This document shows, piece by piece, positions 9,748 through 51,698 of a stretch of 51,698 nt of DNA (position 1 is its first letter; the number at the start of each line of letters is the position of its first letter). The stretch comes from Phycisphaerae bacterium (lineage in GTDB: Bacteria; Planctomycetota; Phycisphaerae; UBA1845). Position numbers and translations under genes: made by a program. Location of the stretch: assembly GCA_030429365.1 (NCBI GenBank), contig JAUIEW010000006.1:1-51698 (forward strand), in the 5' to 3' direction. Below the pieces are notes generated by a model, which was not told the DNA's origin, searched no databases, and worked only from the letters and a program-made list of their open reading frames with translations.

Positions 9748-11193
9748 ATGTTTGAAGAAATCCGGTCGCGGGCCCAACGGCTACGCACAACCCCATCCGA
9801 CGAGTTGAGTCGGTGGGCGCGGCTGGCTGGCTTTCATCTCAACCTCTGGCAGTTCTGCGCGAAGCGCCTTTGGCAAAACAACATCACCGCGATGAGCGCG
9901 GCGCTGTCGTTTCGAACCATCTTCACGATGATTCCGGCGATCGTCCTCGTGCTGTTGATCCTCAAGTCGGTTGGCATGCTGGAAGATTCGCGCAGCAGCC
10001 TCCACGAGATGTTGGCCAAGACCGGCATCTCGCAAATCGTAATTTCAGAACCCATCGAAGACGGTGACGACGCAATAGATGACGACCCAGGCGGTGACAA
10101 CACAGACGGTGAGAACGAGTCGGCTGACCGAACGCTCAACGTTGCGGAAGAGATCGAACGCATCGTTGGCAACGTCGAGTCGAAGCTGACGGTCAATCGC
10201 GTTGGTCCCGTGGGTGTTGTGCTGCTCATCTGGACGGCGCTGACGTTGATCACGACGTTGGAGCGATCGCTCAATCGAATTTTCGGCGCGAGTCGATCGC
10301 GCTCGATACCGCGAAGGCTGTTGATGTACTGGTCCGTTTTGACGTTGGGCCCGTTGGTGTTGATGGCCACTTCGTATCTAGGCGATCGCGTGGTTTCGGC
10401 GTTTGCTGCCGCCCCCGGCGCCTCATTCTTGCTGGCGATCTTCGGATGGATGGGGCCAATCCTCGTTGACATTCTCGTTGTTGCGGCGATCTACAAACTG
10501 CTTCCCAACACGCACGTCAAATACCGCGCCGCTTTGGGCGGTGCGATGATTTCCGTTCCGATCTGGCTCGTTGCGAAATGGGGATTCGCAGTTTACGTCG
10601 TCAAATTGGTTGGCGGCGGCAACCTCTACGGGGCGCTGGGCCTGCTCCCTTTGTTTCTGATCTGGGTCAATTTGTCGTGGCTGATCTTTCTGTTCGGGGC
10701 GCAGGTGTCGCACACGGCTGCCAACCTCGAACGCATGCGACGCGTCGAGCGCGCCGACCAGCGATCCTACACGCCGGTTGACCTGCTCGCCGGTGCGATT
10801 ACGGTGGCAGTGCCATATGAATGCGGTAAGGGGCCGGTGTCGGCTGAACTCTTGATCGACAAACTGAACCTGCCGATTGAAGCCATCCGCCGACTCGTCG
10901 ATCGACTGGAGCGCAGCGGAGTGTTGTGTCGCGTCGATCGGGGAACGGATACCGAAGATCATTATGTTCTGGCCAAGCCGCCAAGCGAGATTCAACTGCT
11001 CGATGTGGTCGGTCTGCATGCGGGCGAACTGAACGGTGAGGACGACGCCGGCTATGACCGCGACCTGGCCCAGAGTGTTTCCGCGATCACCGATGCGTGT
11101 TTTCAACCCAAGCTGGGGAAGCTGACGTTGGCCGACGCTTTGGCGAGCCTTCCCGATCCCAAAGAACAGCAAAGCAAAGGAAACGACAGTTGA
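9748..11193 (+). CDS. YihY/BrkB family membrane protein with C-terminal winged helix
   Basis: About 481 aa. The N-terminal 330 residues hold the YihY/BrkB (formerly RNase BN-like) membrane domain, with the SAALSFRTIFTMIPAIVLV start and six hydrophobic segments, ending near IWVNLSWLIFLFGAQ. An acidic, Asp-rich insertion (about 104-132) sits in a loop between the first two segments. After the membrane part comes a soluble domain (about 340-430), PVSAELLIDKLNLPIEAIRRL then RLERSGVL, a winged-helix pattern. An in-frame TTG at 9742 overlaps the previous stop as TTGA and is an alternative start; the ATG at 9748 is reported. The family is a membrane protein of uncertain transport or lipid-related role. 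Following the AsmA-like gene directly, it may share in envelope lipid handling (inference). Confidence 0.88.
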   Translation: MFEEIRSRAQRLRTTPSDELSRWARLAGFHLNLWQFCAKRLWQNNITAMSAALSFRTIFTMIPAIVLVLLILKSVGMLEDSRSSLHEMLAKTGISQIVISEPIEDGDDAIDDDPGGDNTDGENESADRTLNVAEEIERIVGNVESKLTVNRVGPVGVVLLIWTALTLITTLERSLNRIFGASRSRSIPRRLLMYWSVLTLGPLVLMATSYLGDRVVSAFAAAPGASFLLAIFGWMGPILVDILVVAAIYKLLPNTHVKYRAALGGAMISVPIWLVAKWGFAVYVVKLVGGGNLYGALGLLPLFLIWVNLSWLIFLFGAQVSHTAANLERMRRVERADQRSYTPVDLLAGAITVAVPYECGKGPVSAELLIDKLNLPIEAIRRLVDRLERSGVLCRVDRGTDTEDHYVLAKPPSEIQLLDVVGLHAGELNGEDDAGYDRDLAQSVSAITDACFQPKLGKLTLADALASLPDPKEQQSKGNDS

Positions 11194-39179: not shown

Positions 39180-41945
39180 GTGTTCAGGAAATCGCAAATT
39201 CGTTTCGATTTCGTATGGCAGGAATGCCTTTGGTGTTTTATCGCGTTGACCGCGGCACTTGTCGTAGTTCCGGTTTTGCCACAGAGATTGGTTGCGGGTG
39301 ATTGCAATGGCAACAGGATAGATGACGTTGTTGATATCGCGGCGGGCACAAGTGCAGATTGTGGCAGCAACGGCATACCCGATGACTGCGAGCCTGACGG
39401 GGCGTGTGTGTCCGCTTCTGATCTGACGGTGCTGGATGAAGACTTTAACGATTATATGATTGGCCAGGACCCGGCCAATTGGTTTGATACGGACATCTTT
39501 TCGAGCGACATCGAATTTGATGCGCTTTTCAAGATCAAGCAAGTTGGCGATGAAGTTGTATTTGGGACCGACTCGACCGACGTCAACATTCACTCCCACT
39601 ATATTGGCCCTAGTGGTTCGGAGATCTCGACGTTGACATACATGGGTCGCATGCGAATCACCGATGATGACGGTGGTGTTGGCGTGACCTTTCTATCGCG
39701 TTTTAACAAGCAGTCGACATCCGAGTATGACTATCTGCGCCTTCGCCGCTCGAACTATGCTCCACATGCCCGGACGTTTCATTTGGCGCCGCCGGAGTTC
39801 AGTGGGTTAACGGGCGATGTTGATTCAGGCGTTGATCCGATCGTGGACACTTGGTACCGATTTCGCATTGAAGTCACCGAGACTTGCCCCCAATTGCACA
39901 TTCAAGCCAACGTTTGGGAGGATGGTCAACCCGAACCTCCGGATTTTCAGATCGACGCAATTGATCCCACCGGTGTCCATCCAAAATCCGGCACCGTTGG
40001 TGTGTGGAGCATGGGCGCCGGCAGCAAGTACTGGGACGATCTGCAAGTGATTCGCCGAAGTGCTACCGATTCCTGCGTTGATGGCGAACCTTGTGATGAT
40101 TGCGACCCTTGCACGCCCATCGACGTGTGTGTTGATGGAACGTGCATAGGTACATACGGTGATTGCGATGCCCACGCAGTCTTGCCCGAGTGCGCGGAGA
40201 TACTCTATGTGGATGATAGCGCCACCAACGGGTTGAATACCGGCGATTCCTGGGCCGACGCCTATGTTGATCTTCAAGATGCGCTGGCCGAGGCGGCTAT
40301 CAACTGCTCCGTGACTGAGGTCTGGATTGCGGCAGGCACGTACACACCGGATCGAGGCGGAGAGCAAACGCCCGGTGATCGCGATGCGACATTTCGACTG
40401 CAAAACAACTTGGCGCTGTACGGTGGTTTTGTGGGTACGGAGGTCCATCGTGATGAGCGTGATCCAGAATCAAACGAGACGATTCTAAGTGGCGATTTGT
40501 TGGGTGATGATGCACCGGTCGCGTGTTCACAGAATTCGCCGGATTGTGATGCTTTCGGTCAATTGTGTGTCGATGGTGCTTGCATTATCAGCGACAACAA
40601 CGCCGAAAATGCTCGCCATGTGGTAACCGGTACGGGAACCAATGAGACCGCAATCCTTGATGGATTCACCGTCAGCGCGGGAAATGCAGATGGCTCATTT
40701 CCGGATGGCTGGGGCGGTGGCATGATCAACGATAGTGGCGCTCCTGAAGGCACTTCGCCCACGGTGACGCACTGTAAATTCGTCGGCAATTCGGCAATGC
40801 GTGGTGGGGGGATGTGGACTTGGGGGCCAGGTCCAACCGTGGATCATTGCACGTTCAGTCGAAACGCTGCCAGTCTTGCTGGCGGTGGGATGCACAATGT
40901 GAGCAGAGCCTTAGTGATCGATTGCGCATTCGACAACAATTCGGCAGCTTTGGGCGGCGGCATGTACAACGAGGATAGCAGTGTGACAGTCATCCAATGC
41001 ACCTTCAACGAGAATTATGCGTCGTCTGGCGGTGGCGGAATGCGAAACCGAAGCGGCAGCAATTCAATCGTGGACCGCTGTACGTTTAATCGAAACGTTG
41101 CCACCAGTTTCGGCGGCGGATTGGCCAACCTCAGCAGCGGTGCGATCGTAACGAACAGCCAGTTCACAGGTAACAAAGTTGTTTCAGGCAACGGAGGTGG
41201 GATGAGCAACGAAAACGCAAGTCCTCCGTCAATCATCAATTGCGTGTTCAGCGGTAACCATGCCGCATTGAACGGCGGTGGGATCTACGGTCTGTTTTTT
41301 AGCTCGCAGCCCAAGGCGGTTTTGAATTGCACGCTCTCAGCCAATGTTGCCGGAGTCATTGGGGGCGGGATATACAACGAGGGCAGCGTCATAACAGCAA
41401 ACAACTGTGTATTGTGGCGTAACTCGGATGGCAACGGTTCGGGGGAATCCGCACAGTTTTCTGGCGAATACTTAACGGCGAATTATACGACCATTCAAGG
41501 TGGCTGGTCCGGTGCCGGCGTCGGCAATATCGCTGCCGATCCGCTCTTTGCGGATGCGAACGGGGCTGACGACATCGTTGGAACCGAAGACGACGACCTG
41601 CGTTTGCTACCGGGTTCGCCTGCGATCGATGCGGGCGACAATTCGGTTGTGCCCGTTGATGTGTTGACTGATCTGGATGGTCATGCGCGGTTTGTGGATG
41701 ACGTGTCTACGGCTGACACGGGCGTTGGCGTCGCTCCCATTGTTGACATCGGTGCGTACGAGTTTGTGCTCGGCGATTGCGATGCCGATGGCGATGCCGA
41801 TCTTGCAGACTATGCGATCTTGAGTGGATGCTTGACGGGGCCCGGGACGGTACTGGGGGCGGCGTGTGCTTGCCTCGATCTGGACACGGACTTCGATGTA
41901 GATCTGCTGGATTTCTCCTTGTTTCAGAGGGGCTTCTTGCCCTAG
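39180..41945 (+). CDS. Giant secreted beta-helix protein 1, EF-hand/dockerin-like end
   Basis: A 921-aa exported protein. In order: signal peptide (to about 40), EF-hand-like DCNGNRIDDVVDIAAG (about 41-56), a concanavalin-like domain (about 83-293, ending in SGTVGVWSMGAGSKYWDDL), a short cysteine-rich piece, a parallel beta-helix (about 342-860) with many GGGMxN turns, the DPLFADANGADD...GSPAIDAGD closing segment, and a C-terminal EF-hand pair (DCDADGDADLADY and DLDTDFDVDLLDF) like dockerins. The start is GTG at 39180 with GGGG about eight bases before. It probably binds calcium and sits at the cell surface or is secreted. Its front half is homologous to giant gene 3 and its helix to genes 2 and 3. 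The role (adhesion, polysaccharide binding) is inference. Confidence 0.85.
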   Translation: MFRKSQIRFDFVWQECLWCFIALTAALVVVPVLPQRLVAGDCNGNRIDDVVDIAAGTSADCGSNGIPDDCEPDGACVSASDLTVLDEDFNDYMIGQDPANWFDTDIFSSDIEFDALFKIKQVGDEVVFGTDSTDVNIHSHYIGPSGSEISTLTYMGRMRITDDDGGVGVTFLSRFNKQSTSEYDYLRLRRSNYAPHARTFHLAPPEFSGLTGDVDSGVDPIVDTWYRFRIEVTETCPQLHIQANVWEDGQPEPPDFQIDAIDPTGVHPKSGTVGVWSMGAGSKYWDDLQVIRRSATDSCVDGEPCDDCDPCTPIDVCVDGTCIGTYGDCDAHAVLPECAEILYVDDSATNGLNTGDSWADAYVDLQDALAEAAINCSVTEVWIAAGTYTPDRGGEQTPGDRDATFRLQNNLALYGGFVGTEVHRDERDPESNETILSGDLLGDDAPVACSQNSPDCDAFGQLCVDGACIISDNNAENARHVVTGTGTNETAILDGFTVSAGNADGSFPDGWGGGMINDSGAPEGTSPTVTHCKFVGNSAMRGGGMWTWGPGPTVDHCTFSRNAASLAGGGMHNVSRALVIDCAFDNNSAALGGGMYNEDSSVTVIQCTFNENYASSGGGGMRNRSGSNSIVDRCTFNRNVATSFGGGLANLSSGAIVTNSQFTGNKVVSGNGGGMSNENASPPSIINCVFSGNHAALNGGGIYGLFFSSQPKAVLNCTLSANVAGVIGGGIYNEGSVITANNCVLWRNSDGNGSGESAQFSGEYLTANYTTIQGGWSGAGVGNIAADPLFADANGADDIVGTEDDDLRLLPGSPAIDAGDNSVVPVDVLTDLDGHARFVDDVSTADTGVGVAPIVDIGAYEFVLGDCDADGDADLADYAILSGCLTGPGTVLGAACACLDLDTDFDVDLLDFSLFQRGFLP

Positions 41946-42315
41946 AGCCAAGCGCGGTCTGCTGGTATAGCGGCGATCGAGTTGGGGTGTGGTACGACGA
42001 CACGACACGGTGCGTGAATCGTTCCGCCCATTGCGTGGGCCGATCAACAGGTCCGCAAATATCCGTTGATATTCACGCCGGATTTTCACATCCAGCCATT
42101 GAGTGGGTGAGCTTCAATCTGCTACCATGATCATGGGACAGGTGCATGTGGTCGGCATGCACTTCTCTGTTGATCAGATTGAACACCACAATGCATTTTG
42201 TGGTTCCATTCTCATGGACCATTCGTTCCGAATCAGGACTCGACCAACCTTTACCATTAGCCTGCGGCTATGCTTTTTGAAAAGGCGCACCAGGCGCCTG
42301 CAAGGGGCAGCGACC
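41946..42315. other. Spacer between giant genes 1 and 2
   Basis: 370 bases with no conserved gene. A 7-bp hairpin, ACCACAA-TGCATT-TTGTGGT (42185-42204), lies about 110 bases before the next start, and a GGCGC-rich hairpin sits near the ribosome binding site (about 42283-42300). These could affect expression of gene 2; nothing else was seen. Confidence 0.4.
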
Positions 42316-45300
42316 ATGAACAATACCAATGCAACCCCAATTCGTTTGCGTCAGCCGGCACGGCGCATCAACCGAATCATGCTTTCGCTGTCGCTTATCT
42401 TGTCGATAGTGCTGGTTCCAATTGCGAGGGCGGATGACTGTAATTCCAACGGTCTCGACGATGCGGCTGACATCGCTGGCGGCACGAGTACGGACTGCGA
42501 TACCAATGGCCTTCCCGATGAATGCGAGGGCGTGCTGTTCGTGGATGACAGTGCGACCAACGGACTGAACGACGGAAGTTCATGGGACAATGCGTTTGTC
42601 TATCTGCAGGATGCGTTGTCGGCGGCTGATGCGAACTGCGCGATTGGCGAGATCTGGGTGGCAGCAGGGACGTACAAGCCGGATCAGGGCGGCGGACAGA
42701 CGCCGGGTGATCGCTCAGCCACCTTTCAGCTTCAATCCGGATTGGCGCTCCACGGTGGTTTCAACGGAACGGAATCCAGTCTGGATCAGCGCGACCTGTC
42801 CACCAATCGAACCATTCTCAGCGGCGATTTGCTCGGTGACGACCTACCCGATTTTGAAAACATGACGGAGAACAGCCAGCATGTCGTGACCGGGTCCGGG
42901 ACAGATTCCACGGCCATATTGGACGGAGTCACCATTTCGGCTGGCTACGCCGACACGCCCATGTTCGACGGTCCCGGGGGCGGAATGTTGAATGAAGCTG
43001 GCAATCCGACTTTGGTGGATTGCAGATTCATTGGAAATCAGGCTTACGATGGGGCGGGGATGGCCAATTTCTCAAGTAGCCCGAGTTTGACCCGCTGTGC
43101 ATTCGAGCGAAACAAAGCCCTTCTTTCAGGTACGGCTGTTCTGAATGCGGAGCAGAGTCACGCAACATTCGCAAACTGCGAATTCAGAAACAACCTATCA
43201 GCGGTAAGTATTGCGGGACCGTTCGACGCGGGCGGTATGCAAAATCTGGAGAGCAGCCCGTCGATCACTGCCTGCCAATTCATCCATGACTTGCCAATCT
43301 ACGGGCATGTGCCTTACGGAATTCGCAATAGCGGCAGCGATCCAACGATAACGGATTGCAGTTTTGCGGGTTTCTATGTTGGAATTGAGAACAATGAAAA
43401 CTCGAGTCCGGCCGTGAGCCGAAGTCGCTTTAGCAAGAACCTCTCGTCCGGTATGACGAACGGTACTGGCATTCCGACCATTACCGGATGCTACTTCACG
43501 AGTAACGGGGTCGGTGGAATTATGAATTCAAGCTGCAATGCGATCATTGCGAACTGCGTTTTCAACGGGAACTTCGGGCGCGCGCCTCAAGCTGCAGGCA
43601 TATCCAATCACGTATACAGTTCTCCATTGATTGTCAATTGCACGTTTACACGTGGAATCCGTTCGTCCACAGGCGTGCCACACGAAGCGATTGCTAACTT
43701 TTTCCATAGCAGTCCGACGATCGCCAACTGCGTGTTCTGGGACAAGGGGCAGATTCAGATCAGGTCGTTAGATGGCAGTGCGCCGGTCGTCAATTACAGC
43801 ATCGTTCAAGGTGGCTGGAGCGGTGCTGGCGGTATTGGGATTATCGACGCTGATCCGTTGTTTGTGGATTCGAATGGGCCCGACGGTATAGCGGGAACCG
43901 AAGACGACGATTTGCGGTTGCAGCCCGGTTCGCCCGCGCTCGATGCCGGTGATAATTCGGCAGTGCCGGTGGGTATCGTCACTGATCATAGTGGAGCCGA
44001 CCGATTTGTAGACGACGTTAATACGCCGGATACCGGTGCAGGCCCGGTACCGATTGTGGACATGGGTGCGTATGAATTCCAGGCGAAAACCGTGCTGTAC
44101 GTCGACGATGACGCGACCAGCGGAGCCAACGACGGATCGAGTTGGGCCGACGCGTATGTGTACTTGCAGGATGCATTGCTCGACGCGGCAACCAATGGCG
44201 TGACAAGTCAGATTTGGGTGGCGGCAGGAACGTACAAGCCGGACGAGGGCGGTGGGCAAACGTTGGGTGATCGCACAGCCACCTTCCAACTTCAATCCGG
44301 TTTGGCGATCTATGGCGGTTTCGCAGGATTCGAAACCACGCTTGATGAACGTAACGCTGACAGCAACGCCACGGTTCTGAGTGGCGACTTGATGGGCGAC
44401 GACCTGCCCAACTTTGGCAACTACGATGAAAACGCGCTACATGTCCTGACTGGGTCTGGTACGGATGAGACCGCGGTGCTCGATGGATTTACGGTTACGT
44501 CGGGCAACGCGAACGGGGTTCCGCTTTGGGGTGGTGGAATGTTGAATGATGCGGGCCATCCGACCATAGACCATTGTGTCTTCAAGCATAATTTGGCCGG
44601 CGTCAACCAGGGGTTCGGTTGTTGCGGTGGTGGAGGAGGAGTCGCAAATATTGGAAGCGCTCCAACGATTCGGAACTCCAGGTTCAATCAAAACAAAGCT
44701 GTTAACGGCGGAGGCATATACAACATTGATCAAAGCGATCCAATCATCGAGGATTGCGTGTTTGAGGGAAACGCGAATTTTGGCTCTGTCACGTCAACAC
44801 CGCGAGGTGGTGCAGGGATCCAGAATGAAAATAGTAGTCCAATGGTGTTGAGATGTCGTTTCGTCCGCAATGAAGGTGGGCAAGCCGGTGGAATTCTAAA
44901 TGCGCTCCAAAGCAATCCGACTATTTGGCGTTGTGACTTTGATAGCAATGGCCCAGCTGGAATTGAAAACGATGATGGATCCGATGCAATCATCGACTCA
45001 TGCCTGTTCAAGAGAAACGACGGGATTGGCGTCAGCAATACATCCAGTCAGCCGACAATTTCGAACAGTGTGTTTCTCGGAAACGAACTTACTGGAATGG
45101 TCAATACATTCAGCGACGCAGCCGTGACGAACTGCGTATTCGACGGAAACGGTACAGGTTCAACCAAGGCCGGAGGCATGTACACCATCGGAAGTGCTCC
45201 GCTCGTGACAAATTGCACTTTTGCCAACAATGCGGTTTCGATAGGGCAGAGTGTCGGTGGCGGAATCCACAATATCGCAAACAGCAGCCCGATCGTTACG

Positions 45301-45831
45301 AACTGCATCTTCTGGAAAAACACCCCAGGTCAAATCGAAGAAGCCGGTAACTCCCCAGTGGTCAATTGGAGCATTGTTCAAGGTGGTTGGAGCGGAGATG
45401 GTGGGACTGGGATCATCGATGCCGATCCGTTGTTTGTAGATTCGAACGGCCCCGACAATTTCGCCGGTACCGAAGACGACGACTTGCGCTTGCTGCCAGG
45501 TTCGTCGGCGATCGATGCTGGTGACAATTCAGCGGTGCCGGTTGATGGGTTGACTGATCTGGACGGTCATGCGCGCTTTGTGGATGACGTCACGATGACT
45601 GACGTGGGCGTTGGCATTGCTCCGATTGTCGACATGGGAGCCTACGAGTTTGTGCTGGGTGACTGTGATGCTGACGGTGATGCCGACCTTGATGACCATG
45701 CGATTCTGAGCGGGTGTCTTACGAGCCCGGGCACTGCGTTGGGTGTTGGCTGTGCTTGTCTTGATCTGGATTCGGATGGCGACGTGGATTTGCGCGATTT
45801 TGCGCTGTTTCAGCGCGGGTTTTTCAATTGA
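42316..45831 (+). CDS. Giant secreted beta-helix protein 2, duplicated helix
   Basis: A 1171-aa exported protein with signal peptide, one EF-hand motif (DCNSNGLDDAADIAGG) and two tandem beta-helix modules, starting at about 42534 and 44092. Each opens with VDDxATxGxNDGSSWxxAxx, then YLQDAL, IWVAAGTYKPD and a TPGDR/TLGDR line, and ends with the DPLFVDSNGPD...GTEDDDL block. The second module is clearly a copy of the first. The C-terminus is the EF-hand pair (DCDADGDADLDDH, DLDSDGDVDLRDF). The ATG at 42316 has AAGGGG eight bases upstream. Unlike genes 1 and 3 it lacks the concanavalin-like domain. Its function is unknown; a surface-structural or binding protein is likely. A small CGGCAT/ATGCCG hairpin follows its stop. 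Confidence 0.85.
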   Translation: MNNTNATPIRLRQPARRINRIMLSLSLILSIVLVPIARADDCNSNGLDDAADIAGGTSTDCDTNGLPDECEGVLFVDDSATNGLNDGSSWDNAFVYLQDALSAADANCAIGEIWVAAGTYKPDQGGGQTPGDRSATFQLQSGLALHGGFNGTESSLDQRDLSTNRTILSGDLLGDDLPDFENMTENSQHVVTGSGTDSTAILDGVTISAGYADTPMFDGPGGGMLNEAGNPTLVDCRFIGNQAYDGAGMANFSSSPSLTRCAFERNKALLSGTAVLNAEQSHATFANCEFRNNLSAVSIAGPFDAGGMQNLESSPSITACQFIHDLPIYGHVPYGIRNSGSDPTITDCSFAGFYVGIENNENSSPAVSRSRFSKNLSSGMTNGTGIPTITGCYFTSNGVGGIMNSSCNAIIANCVFNGNFGRAPQAAGISNHVYSSPLIVNCTFTRGIRSSTGVPHEAIANFFHSSPTIANCVFWDKGQIQIRSLDGSAPVVNYSIVQGGWSGAGGIGIIDADPLFVDSNGPDGIAGTEDDDLRLQPGSPALDAGDNSAVPVGIVTDHSGADRFVDDVNTPDTGAGPVPIVDMGAYEFQAKTVLYVDDDATSGANDGSSWADAYVYLQDALLDAATNGVTSQIWVAAGTYKPDEGGGQTLGDRTATFQLQSGLAIYGGFAGFETTLDERNADSNATVLSGDLMGDDLPNFGNYDENALHVLTGSGTDETAVLDGFTVTSGNANGVPLWGGGMLNDAGHPTIDHCVFKHNLAGVNQGFGCCGGGGGVANIGSAPTIRNSRFNQNKAVNGGGIYNIDQSDPIIEDCVFEGNANFGSVTSTPRGGAGIQNENSSPMVLRCRFVRNEGGQAGGILNALQSNPTIWRCDFDSNGPAGIENDDGSDAIIDSCLFKRNDGIGVSNTSSQPTISNSVFLGNELTGMVNTFSDAAVTNCVFDGNGTGSTKAGGMYTIGSAPLVTNCTFANNAVSIGQSVGGGIHNIANSSPIVTNCIFWKNTPGQIEEAGNSPVVNWSIVQGGWSGDGGTGIIDADPLFVDSNGPDNFAGTEDDDLRLLPGSSAIDAGDNSAVPVDGLTDLDGHARFVDDVTMTDVGVGIAPIVDMGAYEFVLGDCDADGDADLDDHAILSGCLTSPGTALGVGCACLDLDSDGDVDLRDFALFQRGFFN

Positions 45832-46075
45832 TTGCGGGGACGGCATGACAAATGCCGCCCGTTATCGGGACATGCGTGTCAGCGTCCAAAAATCTTAGCG
45901 TCAATTGCACTCGTTTGATGGTCGGTCTCCCGGGTAGAATTGACGATCCGCATCAGCCCAATAGGGCTAAGGGCTATTAGGCCGCCAAAGCCAATTGGCT
46001 GGCGTGGCTATGCAGATGTTGAGTCGGAAGGCGGAGCGATCAACGACTCAGACCAACTCCTGGAGGATCGACCCA

Positions 46076-49000
46076 ATGTGCAGCACATCGGGCTGTCAAT
46101 TCGCAAATCATCGTCGGAAATCCTTATTGGTATTGATTGTGCTGGCCACGTGTGCGGTGCCGCACTCTGCTCTTGCCGCGGATTGCAATGACAACGGTGT
46201 GGACGATGCCATCGATATCAGCGGTGGTGCGAGTCTCGATTGTGGCAACAACGGTATACCGGACGAATGCGAGCCCGAAGGCGTCTGCATCTCTGCTTGT
46301 GATCTGGTCGTCCTTGACGAAGATTTTGAGGCGTACGCGATCGGTTCTGATCCTGCTGACTGGTTTGATACCCAAGCCGGTTCCGCGACGAACGAAGACG
46401 ACGCTCTATATCGCGTCACAAATGCCGGCGGAAATCAGGCATTCTTTACGGATTCGTCGAGCACGAATGTCCATTCGCACTATGTCGGTCCGGACGGGGC
46501 TACCCTTTCGAGCATGACGTACACGGGCCGGATGCGCATCTCCGATGACAACGGCGGTATCGGCGTCACGTTCCTCTCGCAGTTCAGCGATCAGCCGGGA
46601 TCAACATACGAGTACCTGCGACTTCGCCGGGCCAACTATGCCCCGGAAGCACGCACATTTCAGCTTGCGCCGCCCAACTTCGACAATCTCGTCGGCGACA
46701 TCGACTCGGGCGTCGATCCGGTTGTGGATACGTGGTATCGATTTCGCGTCGATGTTGATACGACCGGTGCGCAGATGCGCATCCAGGCGAAGGTATGGGA
46801 GGAGGGCCAACCCGAACCAGTGGCGTATCAGATCGACGCGGTCGATCCAAGCGGTCAACATCCAACATCCGGCACCGTCGGTATCTGGAGCATGGGCGGC
46901 GGCGAAAAGTATTGGGACGATTTGCACGCCGTCAGCCGCAACGCGCTGGTCGCATGCGACGACTTGGATGCGTGCACGGTTGGTGATGTGTGCATGGGGG
47001 GTGTGTGTCAAGGCGTGCCTATCGACTGCTCGTACCTAAGCGGCGCATGTTTGGTTGGTGGGTGCGACCCCAACAGCGGGACGTGTGTAGCCATTCCGGC
47101 CAATGAAGGCGGAGGTTGCGACGACGCGGATGCGTGCACATTTAACGATAATTGTGCGGGCGGCGTTTGTTCTGGAGTCGCATTGGATTGTTCGCACCTT
47201 GACGAAGGGTGCCTCGTTGGCGCGTGCAATCCAGCATTGGGGACGTGCGAGACTGTTCCGGGAAACGAAGGTGCATCGTGTGACGATCTGAACCCGTGTA
47301 CCGAAAGCGATGCCTGTGACGACGGTGTATGCCGCGGGGACTCAAAGGACTGCTCTGCATTGAACGTCGGATGTTTGGAAGCGACCTGCAATCTGACCAA
47401 TGGGCTTTGTGAATCACCCTCCGGTTTCGGTGACTGCGACACGGACGGTTTTCCAGACGAATGTGAGTTCGATTCAGGCTTGCGGGTGACGAAACTCACC
47501 AGGACAGATTTTGCATCGGTTTTTCGGTTTGGCGCTGATGTGGCTGTGGACGGGACGTTTGGCGTGGTTGGCGCACCATTCAGTTCGGTGGCTGGTCCAA
47601 ATGAAAGCGGAGCGGCATATGTCATTAATCGAGTTGACGGCGTTTGGCAAACAGGCTCGCAGTTGACTGCGAATGATGCGGATGCGGTTGATCGATTTGG
47701 CCATGCCGTCGGCATCAGCGATGACACGATCGTTGTCAGTGCGAATCGAGAGAACAATGTCCACGGGGCAGTCTACGTATTCAAGTGGTTGAACGGAATT
47801 TGGCAGCAGGTTCAGAAATTGATTGCGAGCGACGGGACCGTCAATGATCTATTCGGTGCGAGCATTGCGATTGACGGCGACACCATACTTGTGGGTGCGA
47901 TTGGAGACGATGACTCAGGAAGCCTGAGCGGGGCTGCATACATATTTGAAAAGATCGATAGCAGTTGGCAAGAAGTTGCGAAGCTGACAGCCGATGACGC
48001 CGCGTCCGATGACCACTTCGGGCGAGCCGTGGCGCTTGATGGCGATACGGCTGTGATTGGCGCGTACCGCGCTGACAGTGATGAGGTCAATGAGGGTGGC
48101 GCGGTTTACATATTTCGTAAATCAGGCGGCGCTTGGTCCCAGGTGGAGAAACTGACGGCTGACAATGCGGAACTAGAGGATTGGTTTGGATTCGCCGTCG
48201 ATGTGGAACGAGATACGATTGTTGTCGGCGCTCATCGGGCGGATCGAGGCGCCGTCGACAGCGGCGCGGCATACATTTTTCGCAAGGTAGGCGGAACTTG
48301 GCAAAGTGTCTCAGAACTGACTTCGGACAACCCCACGACGGAAGCACACTTTGGTTACAGCGTTGGCATTGCGAACGGGGTCGTTGCGCTCGGTGCGATT
48401 GGGGACATTTCCGATAGTCCGGATAACGGCGCCGCATATTTCTCATATGAAGTTTCGGGAATCTGGCAGCAACCAATCGGAATTGTTGCGGGCGACGGCT
48501 CGTTCGATGACGAATTTGGGACAAGCGTTACCGTGAGCGGTTTGCAGGTGTTTTGCGGGACTCCGCTCTACGATGGCGTTTGGTCGAACAGCGGGGCGCT
48601 CTATGTCTTCGATCTTGCGATCCCCGATTGCAACAACAACGGGGTGCTGAACGAGTGCGACATCGCGTCGGGGCTTGAGACGGACTGTAACCTCAATGGT
48701 GTTCCCGATGCATGCGAACCTTTCGGAGAGAACGCGCAGGACTGTTCGCACCTGGACAGTGCTTGTGCGAGGGGCGTATGTCAACTTGAAGAAGCCGCGT
48801 GCGACGTCATTTCGGTCAACGAGGGCGGGGTGTGTGATGATTTGGACAACTGCACGATGAATGATTCCTGCGATGCAGGTATTTGTGCTGGCGAACCCGT
48901 CGATTGCTCTGCGCTTGATTCGGATTGTCTGGCTGGTGAGTGCAATCCTCTAGATGGCGGATGTGTGGTTGTGCCTGCCAACGAAGGAGGTGCGTGTGAT

Positions 49001-51698
49001 GATTTGGATTTATGCACCGTCAGCGATGTGTGCTCGATTGGCATATGCCAAGGGACGCCGATGGATTGCTCGCAGCTGGATCACAGCTGTGCAGAAGGGG
49101 TTTGCAATTCGAGCAACGGATTATGTGAAACGTCGCCGGTCAATGAAGGCGGCGCATGCGATGACGTGAATGTCTGCACGACTGACGACTATTGCGCGAA
49201 TGGAGAGTGCACGGGCGTTTCCGTTGACTGTTCGCATCTGAATAGTGCCTGCATAGTTGGGGCATGTGACCAGACAAGTGGCGAGTGTGCGGCCATCCCT
49301 GCCAACGAGGGCGGTGCGTGCAATGACCTCGAACTGTGTACCGACGACGATCGATGTCAAAGCGGCATCTGCGCAGGGACGACAATTGACTGCGCACTTT
49401 ATGACGTCGCATGTCTTCCGGGTGCGTGCAATCCAAGCACTGGAATGTGTGAATCGCCAGTCATCGAGAGCGATTGCAATACAGACGGTGTTCCGGACGA
49501 ATGCGAGTATTCGTCAACTCCGTTCTATTCAAGAATCTTGGCGCCAGATGGAGCGGCTGGTGATCGGTTTGGTTCAAGTGTTGACTTTGGAGATTCGATT
49601 GCGGCAATTGGTTCTTACTATGGATCGGTTTCCGGGGTCAGCGAAAGTGGTTCGGCATATGTATTCCAACAGGTGGGCGACACATGGATGTATGCCACGG
49701 AACTGGTTTATGAGGATCCGGCCTCGGGCGATCGATTTGGCTTTGACTTATCGATCAGCGGAAGTGAACTCATCGTCGGTGCAAACCGAGATGATGACGA
49801 TGGAACCGACAGTGGTTCTGCGTTCATCTTTGCGACATCAAATGGTATCTGGAAGCAATTTGCCAAATTGACGGCTGACGATGCGGCTGGTGAAGATTAT
49901 TTTGGAACCGGCGTTGCCCTTGATGGTAATACAGCGGTGGTCGGCGCTCATGGAGATGACGACGGGGGTTCGGAAAGCGGTTCGGCGTATGTATTCCGTA
50001 AAGCCGGTGGAGTTTGGCTACAGATCGCGAAGCTGACAGCTGATGATGCCACGTCCGATGACTATTTTGGCCGCGATGTTGCGATGAGCAGAGATACGAT
50101 CGTGGTCGGCGCTTACCGGGCGGACAACAATGGGGTCGGCAATACCGGGGCTGCGTACGTGTTTCGTGAAATCAACGGCGTTTGGCAACAAGTCGCAAAA
50201 CTGGGAGCCGACGATGGGGCTACGGACGATGGTTTTGGACTCGATGTCGACATCGACGGTGCCACCATCGTCGTTGGCGCATACCAGGATGACGATGGCG
50301 CATTGAACAGCGGATCAGCTTATGTCTTTCGGGAAGTCGGAGGAGTGTGGTTGCAAGTGGCCAAACTCAATGCAGGCGATCCTGTTGGTGATGCGAATTT
50401 CGGGCGAAGCGTAGCGATCGATGGCAACCTTGTCGTCGTAGGGGCATACCGAGACGATGGCAACGGGCTTGAAAGTGGTGCGGCGTACATTTCGCAAAAA
50501 ATCGCTGGAGTTTGGGGGCAGCCAATCAAGTTCGTTCCAGACGTGACGTCAGCCGGCGATCAATTGGGAATAAGTGTGGCGATCTCCGGAAACACTTCGG
50601 TCCTCGGGGCATATCAAGATGCGGACAACGGAGCGGATTCCGGTTCTGCGTTTGTGATGGTACTCGCGCCCCCGGACTGCAACTCCAACGGCATGTTGGA
50701 CGAATGCGACATCGCGTCGGGCCTTGAAACGGATTGCAATCTCAACGGGGTTCCCGATGCGTGCGAACCTTTCGGAGAGAACGCGCAGGACTGCTCGTAC
50801 TTGGATAGCCCTTGCGCGAAGGGTGTCTGCGATCTTGAACAGGGAACGTGTGAAAGAGCTCCCGCAAACGAAGGCGGTAGTTGCGACGACGCCAGCGACT
50901 GTACTTTGAATGATGTTTGTTTTTCCGGGAAATGCATCGGTACCCGTGAGGACTGCGCCAGTAATGGTTTGCCGGCAGAATGCGAAACGGTCCTGTACGT
51001 TGATGACAGTGCGACGGCTGGCTTGGACAACGGAACTTCGTGGCCGGATGCCTACATCTATCTCCAAGACGCTTTGTACGAAGCGAGCGTCAATTGTGGT
51101 GTTACGGAAATCTGGGTAGCGGCGGGGAGCTATGCGCCTGACATTGGTGCGATGCAAATGCCTGGCGATACGTCTGCGGCATTTGATCTGCGCCACGGAT
51201 TGGCGCTCTATGGCGGTTTCTCGGGTAGCGAGACTGAACTGGGTCAGCGGGCCCCTGATGTGCACATATCAAAACTTACAGCCAATGGGTCAACTTTTGA
51301 CATCTTGACTGCAGTCGGAGTGGATTCGACCTCAATTCTCGATGGGCTCACCATCGCAGATGGAATCCGGGGAATGGTTATCGAGTCGGGTAGTCCTTGG
51401 GTCAATAATTGCAAGTTCGAGAATCTGCATCTCAGGGCAGTGGAGAACAGATTCAGTGATCCAACCATTTCCAACTGCGAGTTCTCGTTCAACGGTTATA
51501 TTCCTGGCTCATTCGTCTACGCAGGAGGTGCGATTTCCAATTATCAAAGCGATCCACTCATTGTTGATTGCAGATTCGTCCAAAATCGTGCACCGATGGG
51601 GGCGGGAATCGCAATCTCCGAATCGGACCCAGTCATAGACAACTGCGTCTTTGAAGACAATCTCGGGCAAGGGGCCGGAATCTACATCGTTGCGGGCT
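46076..51698 (+). CDS. Giant secreted modular protein 3 (partial, continues past window)
   Basis: The open frame runs from ATG 46076 to the window end, at least 1874 codons without a stop. GGAGGA precedes the start by eight bases. Order: signal peptide (1-34), EF-hand pair (about 36-67), concanavalin-like domain (79-287, paralogous to gene 1), three cysteine-rich repeats (290-464), a seven-repeat FG-GAP propeller (about 468-850), an EF-hand, four cysteine-rich repeats (887-1132), a second seven-repeat FG-GAP propeller (about 1145-1530), an EF-hand, another cysteine-rich segment (1570-1634) and the start of a beta-helix (1640 on). FG-GAP blades follow DxFGxxVAxDGDTxVVGA, as in integrin-alpha propellers, each about 55 residues. 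Calcium binding and a surface ligand-binding role are inferred. Propellers 1 and 2 each have seven blades. Confidence 0.88.
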   Translation, partial: MCSTSGCQFANHRRKSLLVLIVLATCAVPHSALAADCNDNGVDDAIDISGGASLDCGNNGIPDECEPEGVCISACDLVVLDEDFEAYAIGSDPADWFDTQAGSATNEDDALYRVTNAGGNQAFFTDSSSTNVHSHYVGPDGATLSSMTYTGRMRISDDNGGIGVTFLSQFSDQPGSTYEYLRLRRANYAPEARTFQLAPPNFDNLVGDIDSGVDPVVDTWYRFRVDVDTTGAQMRIQAKVWEEGQPEPVAYQIDAVDPSGQHPTSGTVGIWSMGGGEKYWDDLHAVSRNALVACDDLDACTVGDVCMGGVCQGVPIDCSYLSGACLVGGCDPNSGTCVAIPANEGGGCDDADACTFNDNCAGGVCSGVALDCSHLDEGCLVGACNPALGTCETVPGNEGASCDDLNPCTESDACDDGVCRGDSKDCSALNVGCLEATCNLTNGLCESPSGFGDCDTDGFPDECEFDSGLRVTKLTRTDFASVFRFGADVAVDGTFGVVGAPFSSVAGPNESGAAYVINRVDGVWQTGSQLTANDADAVDRFGHAVGISDDTIVVSANRENNVHGAVYVFKWLNGIWQQVQKLIASDGTVNDLFGASIAIDGDTILVGAIGDDDSGSLSGAAYIFEKIDSSWQEVAKLTADDAASDDHFGRAVALDGDTAVIGAYRADSDEVNEGGAVYIFRKSGGAWSQVEKLTADNAELEDWFGFAVDVERDTIVVGAHRADRGAVDSGAAYIFRKVGGTWQSVSELTSDNPTTEAHFGYSVGIANGVVALGAIGDISDSPDNGAAYFSYEVSGIWQQPIGIVAGDGSFDDEFGTSVTVSGLQVFCGTPLYDGVWSNSGALYVFDLAIPDCNNNGVLNECDIASGLETDCNLNGVPDACEPFGENAQDCSHLDSACARGVCQLEEAACDVISVNEGGVCDDLDNCTMNDSCDAGICAGEPVDCSALDSDCLAGECNPLDGGCVVVPANEGGACDDLDLCTVSDVCSIGICQGTPMDCSQLDHSCAEGVCNSSNGLCETSPVNEGGACDDVNVCTTDDYCANGECTGVSVDCSHLNSACIVGACDQTSGECAAIPANEGGACNDLELCTDDDRCQSGICAGTTIDCALYDVACLPGACNPSTGMCESPVIESDCNTDGVPDECEYSSTPFYSRILAPDGAAGDRFGSSVDFGDSIAAIGSYYGSVSGVSESGSAYVFQQVGDTWMYATELVYEDPASGDRFGFDLSISGSELIVGANRDDDDGTDSGSAFIFATSNGIWKQFAKLTADDAAGEDYFGTGVALDGNTAVVGAHGDDDGGSESGSAYVFRKAGGVWLQIAKLTADDATSDDYFGRDVAMSRDTIVVGAYRADNNGVGNTGAAYVFREINGVWQQVAKLGADDGATDDGFGLDVDIDGATIVVGAYQDDDGALNSGSAYVFREVGGVWLQVAKLNAGDPVGDANFGRSVAIDGNLVVVGAYRDDGNGLESGAAYISQKIAGVWGQPIKFVPDVTSAGDQLGISVAISGNTSVLGAYQDADNGADSGSAFVMVLAPPDCNSNGMLDECDIASGLETDCNLNGVPDACEPFGENAQDCSYLDSPCAKGVCDLEQGTCERAPANEGGSCDDASDCTLNDVCFSGKCIGTREDCASNGLPAECETVLYVDDSATAGLDNGTSWPDAYIYLQDALYEASVNCGVTEIWVAAGSYAPDIGAMQMPGDTSAAFDLRHGLALYGGFSGSETELGQRAPDVHISKLTANGSTFDILTAVGVDSTSILDGLTIADGIRGMVIESGSPWVNNCKFENLHLRAVENRFSDPTISNCEFSFNGYIPGSFVYAGGAISNYQSDPLIVDCRFVQNRAPMGAGIAISESDPVIDNCVFEDNLGQGAGIYIVAG
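48656..48744 (+). repeat. Intragenic repeat, copy 1 (copy 2 at 50705-50793)
   Basis: About 90 bases recur 2049 bases later in the same frame. Both encode the same 30 residues (EF-hand motif plus ACEPFGENAQDC), with nine differences, all synonymous third-position changes. It is the hinge after each propeller, before each cysteine-rich block. Confidence 0.9.
50705..50793 (+). repeat. Intragenic repeat, copy 2
   Basis: Partner of the copy at 48656-48744; it precedes the third cysteine-rich segment and the beta-helix of giant gene 3. Confidence 0.9.

Follow-up and report, generated by a model that had tools for sequence, protein, structure and literature searches.

The locus and its features

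The analysed window, a stretch of 51,698 nucleotides, represents an entire contig (C420) of the source genome, that of a Phycisphaerae (Planctomycetota) bacterium, which comprises 5.23 Mb in 455 contigs and is 95% complete. Three tandem paralogs (39180-41945, 42313-45831 and from 46076 onwards) lie in this window, the third and last of which encodes a giant modular protein. Its start codon ATG at 46076 is preceded by GGAGG at 46062-46066, nine bases ahead, and the frame runs for 1874 codons without a stop, still open at the contig end at 51698. This bears out the initial annotation, which had described a frame of at least 1874 codons running off the window end. The secreted, modular nature that was proposed for the product is in agreement with the frame, the ribosome binding site and an apparent signal peptide recognised by eye. 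The features are as follows:

39180..41945, forward strand: tandem paralog with Ca-loop doublet, the same lectin-like module, beta-helix, choice-of-anchor Q and dockerin-like C-terminus (sequence comparison)
42313..45831, forward strand: tandem paralog with Ca-loop doublet, two beta-helix halves, choice-of-anchor Q and dockerin-like C-terminus (sequence comparison, Pfam)
46076..51698, forward strand: gene of the giant modular secreted protein, 3' end missing at the contig end (open frame, SD GGAGG, ortholog L079 9896-16150)
46076..46180, forward strand: apparent Sec-type signal peptide (RRKSLLVLIVLATCAVPHSALA-A; sequence, read by eye)
46181..46282, forward strand: DCNxNG...DCxNNGIPDECE Ca-loop-like doublet (95% identical to the ortholog; no Pfam EF-hand match)
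46298..46954, forward strand: lectin/concanavalin-like jelly-roll module (AlphaFold; Foldseek matches to galectin-like proteins, legume lectins and thrombospondin)
46955..47455, forward strand: Cys-rich block 1, three units, one in the ortholog (sequence, ortholog comparison)
47459..48640, forward strand: propeller 1, seven FG-GAP_2 blades, residues 462-855 as modelled (Pfam, blade model, AlphaFold, Foldseek, VIA)
48614..48804, forward strand: 191-nt spacer after propeller 1, repeated after propeller 2 (nucleotide comparison)
48626..49495, forward strand: Ca-loop-like doublet and Cys-rich block 2, four units (85-95% identical to the ortholog)
49505..50686, forward strand: propeller 2, seven FG-GAP_2 blades, residues 1144-1537 (Pfam, blade model; 43% identical to propeller 1, 81% to the ortholog)
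50663..50853, forward strand: second copy of the 191-nt spacer repeat (nucleotide comparison)
50687..51025, forward strand: Ca-loop-like doublet and Cys-rich block 3 (sequence, ortholog comparison)
51026..51698, forward strand: right-handed beta-helix, PMP-like, continuing on another contig (Pfam Beta_helix, E 6e-10)

A search of GTDB genomes identified a complete ortholog of 2084 residues in Phycisphaerales bacterium UBA1845 (L079 9896-16150). Its modules are arranged in the order signal peptide, Ca-loop doublet, lectin-like module, Cys-rich block, propeller (seven blades), doublet, Cys-rich block, propeller (seven blades), doublet, Cys-rich block, beta-helix, choice-of-anchor Q and dockerin-like end. 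It is barely credible that the giant frame is an artefact of an assembly fusing unrelated genes, the outcome that the initial annotation had named as fatal to its reading: the gene stops at a contig edge and contains many repeats, but an independent genome has the identical order in a single 2084-codon frame, which rules the artefact out. Purifying selection acts on the giant protein: modules other than propeller 1 share 71-95% identity with the ortholog (57% for the signal peptide) and display dN/dS values of 0.06-0.16 at dS of 0.44-1.3. Only two Pfam families, FG-GAP_2 and Beta_helix, are detected in the window protein, and no enzyme or catalytic domain was found in it.

N-terminal modules and Cys-rich blocks

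The segments that had been called EF-hands are DCNxNGxxD...DCNxNGIPDxCE doublets, which are common across the phylum. As they match no Pfam EF-hand model, Ca-loop-like or thrombospondin-3-like would be the safer name. Residues 36-293, comprising the first doublet and the lectin-like module, yield no Pfam match at all, EF-hand models included. The concanavalin-like module, on the other hand, was named correctly as a predicted fold, because the AlphaFold model of residues ~75-293 (pLDDT 86.3, pTM 0.86) is a jelly-roll sandwich that resembles galectin-like proteins (Foldseek E 7e-7 to 1oq1), legume lectins (E 3e-6 to peanut lectin) and thrombospondin C-terminal domains, as is typical of the concanavalin A-like lectin/glucanase fold. 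Sugar binding by this module is putative. Strong matches to it are present in all five genomes of the genus, in one of 46 other genomes of the family and in two more among 294 genomes sampled in the phylum. Thrombospondins, in which a type 3 Ca-repeat lies beside an L-lectin-like C-terminal domain, offer a parallel: here too, Ca-loop-like repeats adjoin a lectin-like jelly roll, and 1yo8, 2rhp and 3fby are among the Foldseek matches. However, the window module is N-terminal and without a TSP_3 Pfam match, and the likeness is one of fold only.

The Cys-rich repeats, each of ~54 residues, form three blocks, the first of which has no Pfam match when tested alone. An RGDS at residue 420 was considered as a meaningful motif; it is missing from the ortholog and was taken as chance.

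The two seven-bladed propellers

FG-GAP_2 (PF14312) membership is evident from 14 stretches with an E-value of 2.9e-193 and 626.5 bits, compared to a Pfam cut-off of 23. A blade model built from the protein's own 14 repeats places them in two sets of seven (residues 470-848 and 1152-1530) with a step of 52-56 residues, in accordance with the seven repeats of about 55 residues per block that had been noted initially. In both sets, a KLT strand comes first and the third strand of blade 7 comes last, the velcro arrangement known from closed rings. AlphaFold returns propeller 1 as a closed ring (pLDDT 88.5, pTM 0.91), using an alignment of eight related propellers from which the C355 propeller, misaligned by one blade, was left out. 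Among solved structures, the best 50 Foldseek matches of this model are all integrin alpha chains, and VIA-align superimposes it on the human integrin alpha head with a Z-score of 40.5 over 358 residues at 2.9 A and about 18% identity. The propeller profile also finds integrin alpha-M by sequence alone (E 1.3e-8). Propeller 2 probably adopts the same seven-bladed fold, as suggested by its homology to propeller 1 and the equal blade spacing. The FG-GAP_2 repeats, which annotation leaves anonymous, are hereby tied through predicted structure to closed integrin-like propellers.

The likeness to integrins nonetheless has limits. FG or LG followed by GA, GS, GT or SA is found in all 14 blades, while the motif proline is retained in two only (GAP in blade 1, GTP in blade 7). 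No window blade has a DxDxDG calcium loop joining strands 1 and 2; the one DVDIDG present, in blade 12, overlaps with strand 1. Consequently, the propellers have an integrin-head-like fold but lie outside the motif definition of 2011, since the 1-2 loops are devoid of DxDxDG and most blades lack the GAP proline. The closed integrin-like propellers proposed initially are thus supported, by model for the first (residues 462-855) and by homology for the second. Compared to human integrin alpha, the window protein has neither thigh, calf or transmembrane domains nor a beta-subunit or calcium loops, and the GAP proline is mostly replaced. Bacterial integrin-type propellers with seven FG-GAP blades, some in tandem, were described in 2011, with DxDxDG in every blade of the examples (Chouhan et al., 2011; PMC3192720). 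They share with the window protein the seven repeats, the FG...GA motif, the velcro strand from the N-terminus and, sometimes, 14 repeats forming two tandem domains. The window blades differ in that they are of the FG-GAP_2 family, their 1-2 loops lack DxDxDG, and the secreted chain around them is far larger, with additional lectin-like, Cys-rich and beta-helix modules.

Blades are no more alike within a propeller (42.7%) than at the same position of other propellers (42.9%; 39.8% at other positions), so that an old amplification of blades followed by copying of whole propellers is only weakly indicated.

A divergent cassette relative to the ortholog

The most notable new result is a cassette difference between the window protein and its ortholog at residues ~317-850. 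Within the first Cys unit, at residue ~317, an identity of 94% drops to near 50%; it returns abruptly at residues ~851-860, at the spacer that follows propeller 1. The divergent block consists of the two Cys units that are extra in the window and propeller 1, which shares 43% amino-acid identity with its counterpart at saturated synonymous change. The spacer copies after propeller 1 and propeller 2 are 80-82% identical in nucleotide sequence, and 75-79% identical to paralogs. In a tree of 17 propellers with few strongly supported branches, window propeller 1 groups with a propeller from one gene of the corresponding array in genome OFTM112 (support 93/91). An AU test, for which the clade was chosen after the tree had been viewed, rejects a tree joining the two orthologous first propellers (p 0.007).

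This comparison strongly indicates that the two Cys units and propeller 1 were replaced as a cassette, with edges within the repeated spacers. Block replacement through homologous spacers is the simplest reading, pointing to a whole-cassette exchange between paralogs. Fast divergence of propeller 1, or chimeric assembly of either genome, is a rather unlikely source of the difference. Both genomes are metagenome bins, and a chimeric assembly could therefore mimic a cassette swap; in addition, propeller 1 has no close copy elsewhere (49% identity at best), and the support for the clade with OFTM112 is not higher than the values given above. Neither divergence nor chimerism agrees well with saturation of dS in the cassette only, the sharp edges, the accompanying change in the number of Cys units and the AU rejection of sister first propellers. 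Since the ortholog pair differs by one whole propeller, propeller exchange as a mode of surface-protein change becomes testable. The wider proposal that the tandem array is a cassette-exchange system, which swaps whole seven-bladed propellers between paralogs, with closely similar Ca-loop/Cys spacers serving as recombination handles, and diversifies the cell surface, is speculative and, at present, should be regarded as doubtful. If true, the surface would be diversified for partner choice or for escape from phages or predators, while the remainder of the protein is kept under strong purifying selection.

The C-terminus and its possible docking

The Pfam Beta_helix match spans residues 1749-1870. 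As in chlamydial polymorphic membrane proteins (PMP/POMP), the helix carries FxxN/GGA repeats, and the ortholog matches the NCBIfam POMP_repeat as well as choice_anch_Q. In contrast to the chlamydial proteins, no autotransporter barrel was seen here, and the helix is one module among many.

Extending the contig to find the C-terminus, as the initial annotation had recommended, succeeded in part. The ortholog provides the missing end, and the first 795 bases of the reverse strand of contig C404 form an open frame that is 82.6% identical to this C-terminus across 265 residues; about 52 residues are missing between it and the frame in the window. It is strongly indicated by this match that the missing C-terminus sits on C404, and a complete protein of about 2190 residues is therefore predicted. 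The contig end was not found to overlap any other contig of the genome, and we infer the join from the ortholog. Contig C247 also starts in-frame with a beta-helix end and was rejected in view of the C404 match. Synteny failed to support the join, with a downstream gene order that differs from UBA1845. Gene order appears to break right behind the giant gene (at L079 16150-16293 in UBA1845), with a rearranged downstream region: typA/moaC, which come next in UBA1845, lie here on C283 beside an amidohydrolase, and the genes present on C404 are of the sppA-like and subtilase kinds.

Relatives of the dockerin-like end are encoded at the ends of many genes in the source genome. A planctosome of cohesin and dockerin proteins has been proposed for planctomycetes (PMC6461901), with which the window protein shares the giant modular secreted architecture, Ca-repeats and dockerin-like modules. 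It is quite improbable that the giant protein is the scaffold of such a complex, with its C-terminal module docking onto a cohesin. A profile of the C-terminal modules does match type I dockerins in the PDB (E 2.4e-5), and the source genome encodes one cohesin protein of 226 residues (L205 1350-2030 (-) on C267), apparently membrane-anchored, with a signal peptide, a single cohesin domain, a Pro-rich linker, a C-terminal hydrophobic segment and a basic tail. Yet Pfam Dockerin_1 reports no match for the ortholog or C404 and scores of 12-14 bits in two paralogs, under the cut-off of 22.9, and a cohesin counterpart was not found in the four other genomes of the genus, although all of them carry the lectin-like module. 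With the cohesin seen in the source genome only, cohesin-dockerin anchoring is weakened as a general mechanism. The window protein further differs from the planctosome proposal in that no peptidase partner was shown. A weak cohesin-like match in the window at 9975-10259 (-) is antisense to a gene for a YihY-like membrane protein and was taken as noise.

Distribution across the order

Of 41 genomes sampled from the order, 35 contain FG-GAP_2 blades, with three of them from the window's genus. Reading 20 loci in full, of which 19 lie outside the genus and one belongs to a genus-mate, gave 24 sets of at least four blades. Of these sets, 20 contain exactly seven blades; one is a run of 14, two have 8 blades and one has 4. 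Exactly seven blades is therefore the number in most sets sampled across a whole bacterial order. The exact module order, searched for in other planctomycete genomes as recommended initially, was recovered in the window's genus only, complete in UBA1845. The order thus looks genus-restricted, as far as the initial impression of novelty is concerned, but the kind of protein is widespread: giants with two and three propellers exist elsewhere in the order, including a protein of 1735 residues from another family with two seven-bladed sets linked by thrombospondin-3 repeats, and tandem propellers have been published (PMC3192720).

Proposed role of the giant protein

In fold, the modules belong to extracellular binding or scaffold types, and those at the end are of the anchor type. 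The product is probably a secreted, cell-surface or matrix protein in which rigid binding platforms, namely one lectin-like module, two closed seven-bladed integrin-type propellers and one beta-helix, would be joined by Ca-loop/Cys-rich spacers, followed by a choice-of-anchor Q segment and a dockerin-like double Ca-loop module at the C-terminus. The propellers and the lectin-like module would bind partners, either glycans or proteins, the C-terminal module would provide attachment, either to the cell envelope or to other proteins, and cassette exchange among paralogs may alter what is bound. A role in surface binding, adhesion or matrix formation, as suggested initially, is inferred from these modules. 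Alternatively, the modules could be mainly structural spacers: propellers and helix would determine how long and how stiff a fibrous envelope or matrix protein is, without specific binding. This is possible but not likely: the repeats are regular, a catalytic domain was not detected and the number of modules varies freely among paralogs and genomes, whereas the lectin-like module is conserved (36-89% identity, with invariant aromatic and charged residues) and has the lowest dN/dS of the modules (0.06).

Paralogs and related genes in the genus

Across the genus, 17 sets of seven blades were counted. The arrays of UBA1845 and OFTM112 that correspond to the tandem paralogs differ in the number and mixture of modules, and paralogs elsewhere in the source genome carry one to three seven-bladed sets, although the middle set of the C334 paralog has only six clear blades. 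Two gene pieces, L037 (C128) and L041 (C78), seem to be one giant protein split across two contigs within its third propeller: four blades lie at one contig end and the remaining three open the other contig, seven in all. A paralog with the same N-terminal order (L081 9785-14353) has FG-GAP_2 in the first propeller slot and FG-GAP_3 in the second, and SGL/NHL-type repeats occupy a later slot in L196 and L038, as if any propeller fits the slots. In OFTM112, a gene of 272 residues (L082 9881-10699) joins the first third of the lectin-like module straight to choice-of-anchor Q and the dockerin-like end. The joint lies at similar GPDG/GPDN sequences and looks like an in-frame collapse of a giant gene, or a misassembly. 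A further gene, L199 on C220 with counterparts in G047-G050, carries a distantly related copy of the lectin-like module; its frame is of near-constant length across the five genomes of the genus (1586-1590 codons), in contrast to the variable giant genes. The loci L080 and L081 (JANQQE01) are titled Alphaproteobacteria bacterium IP29b_bin.190 but appear to be from G049, a genome of the window's genus, and are probably mislabelled.
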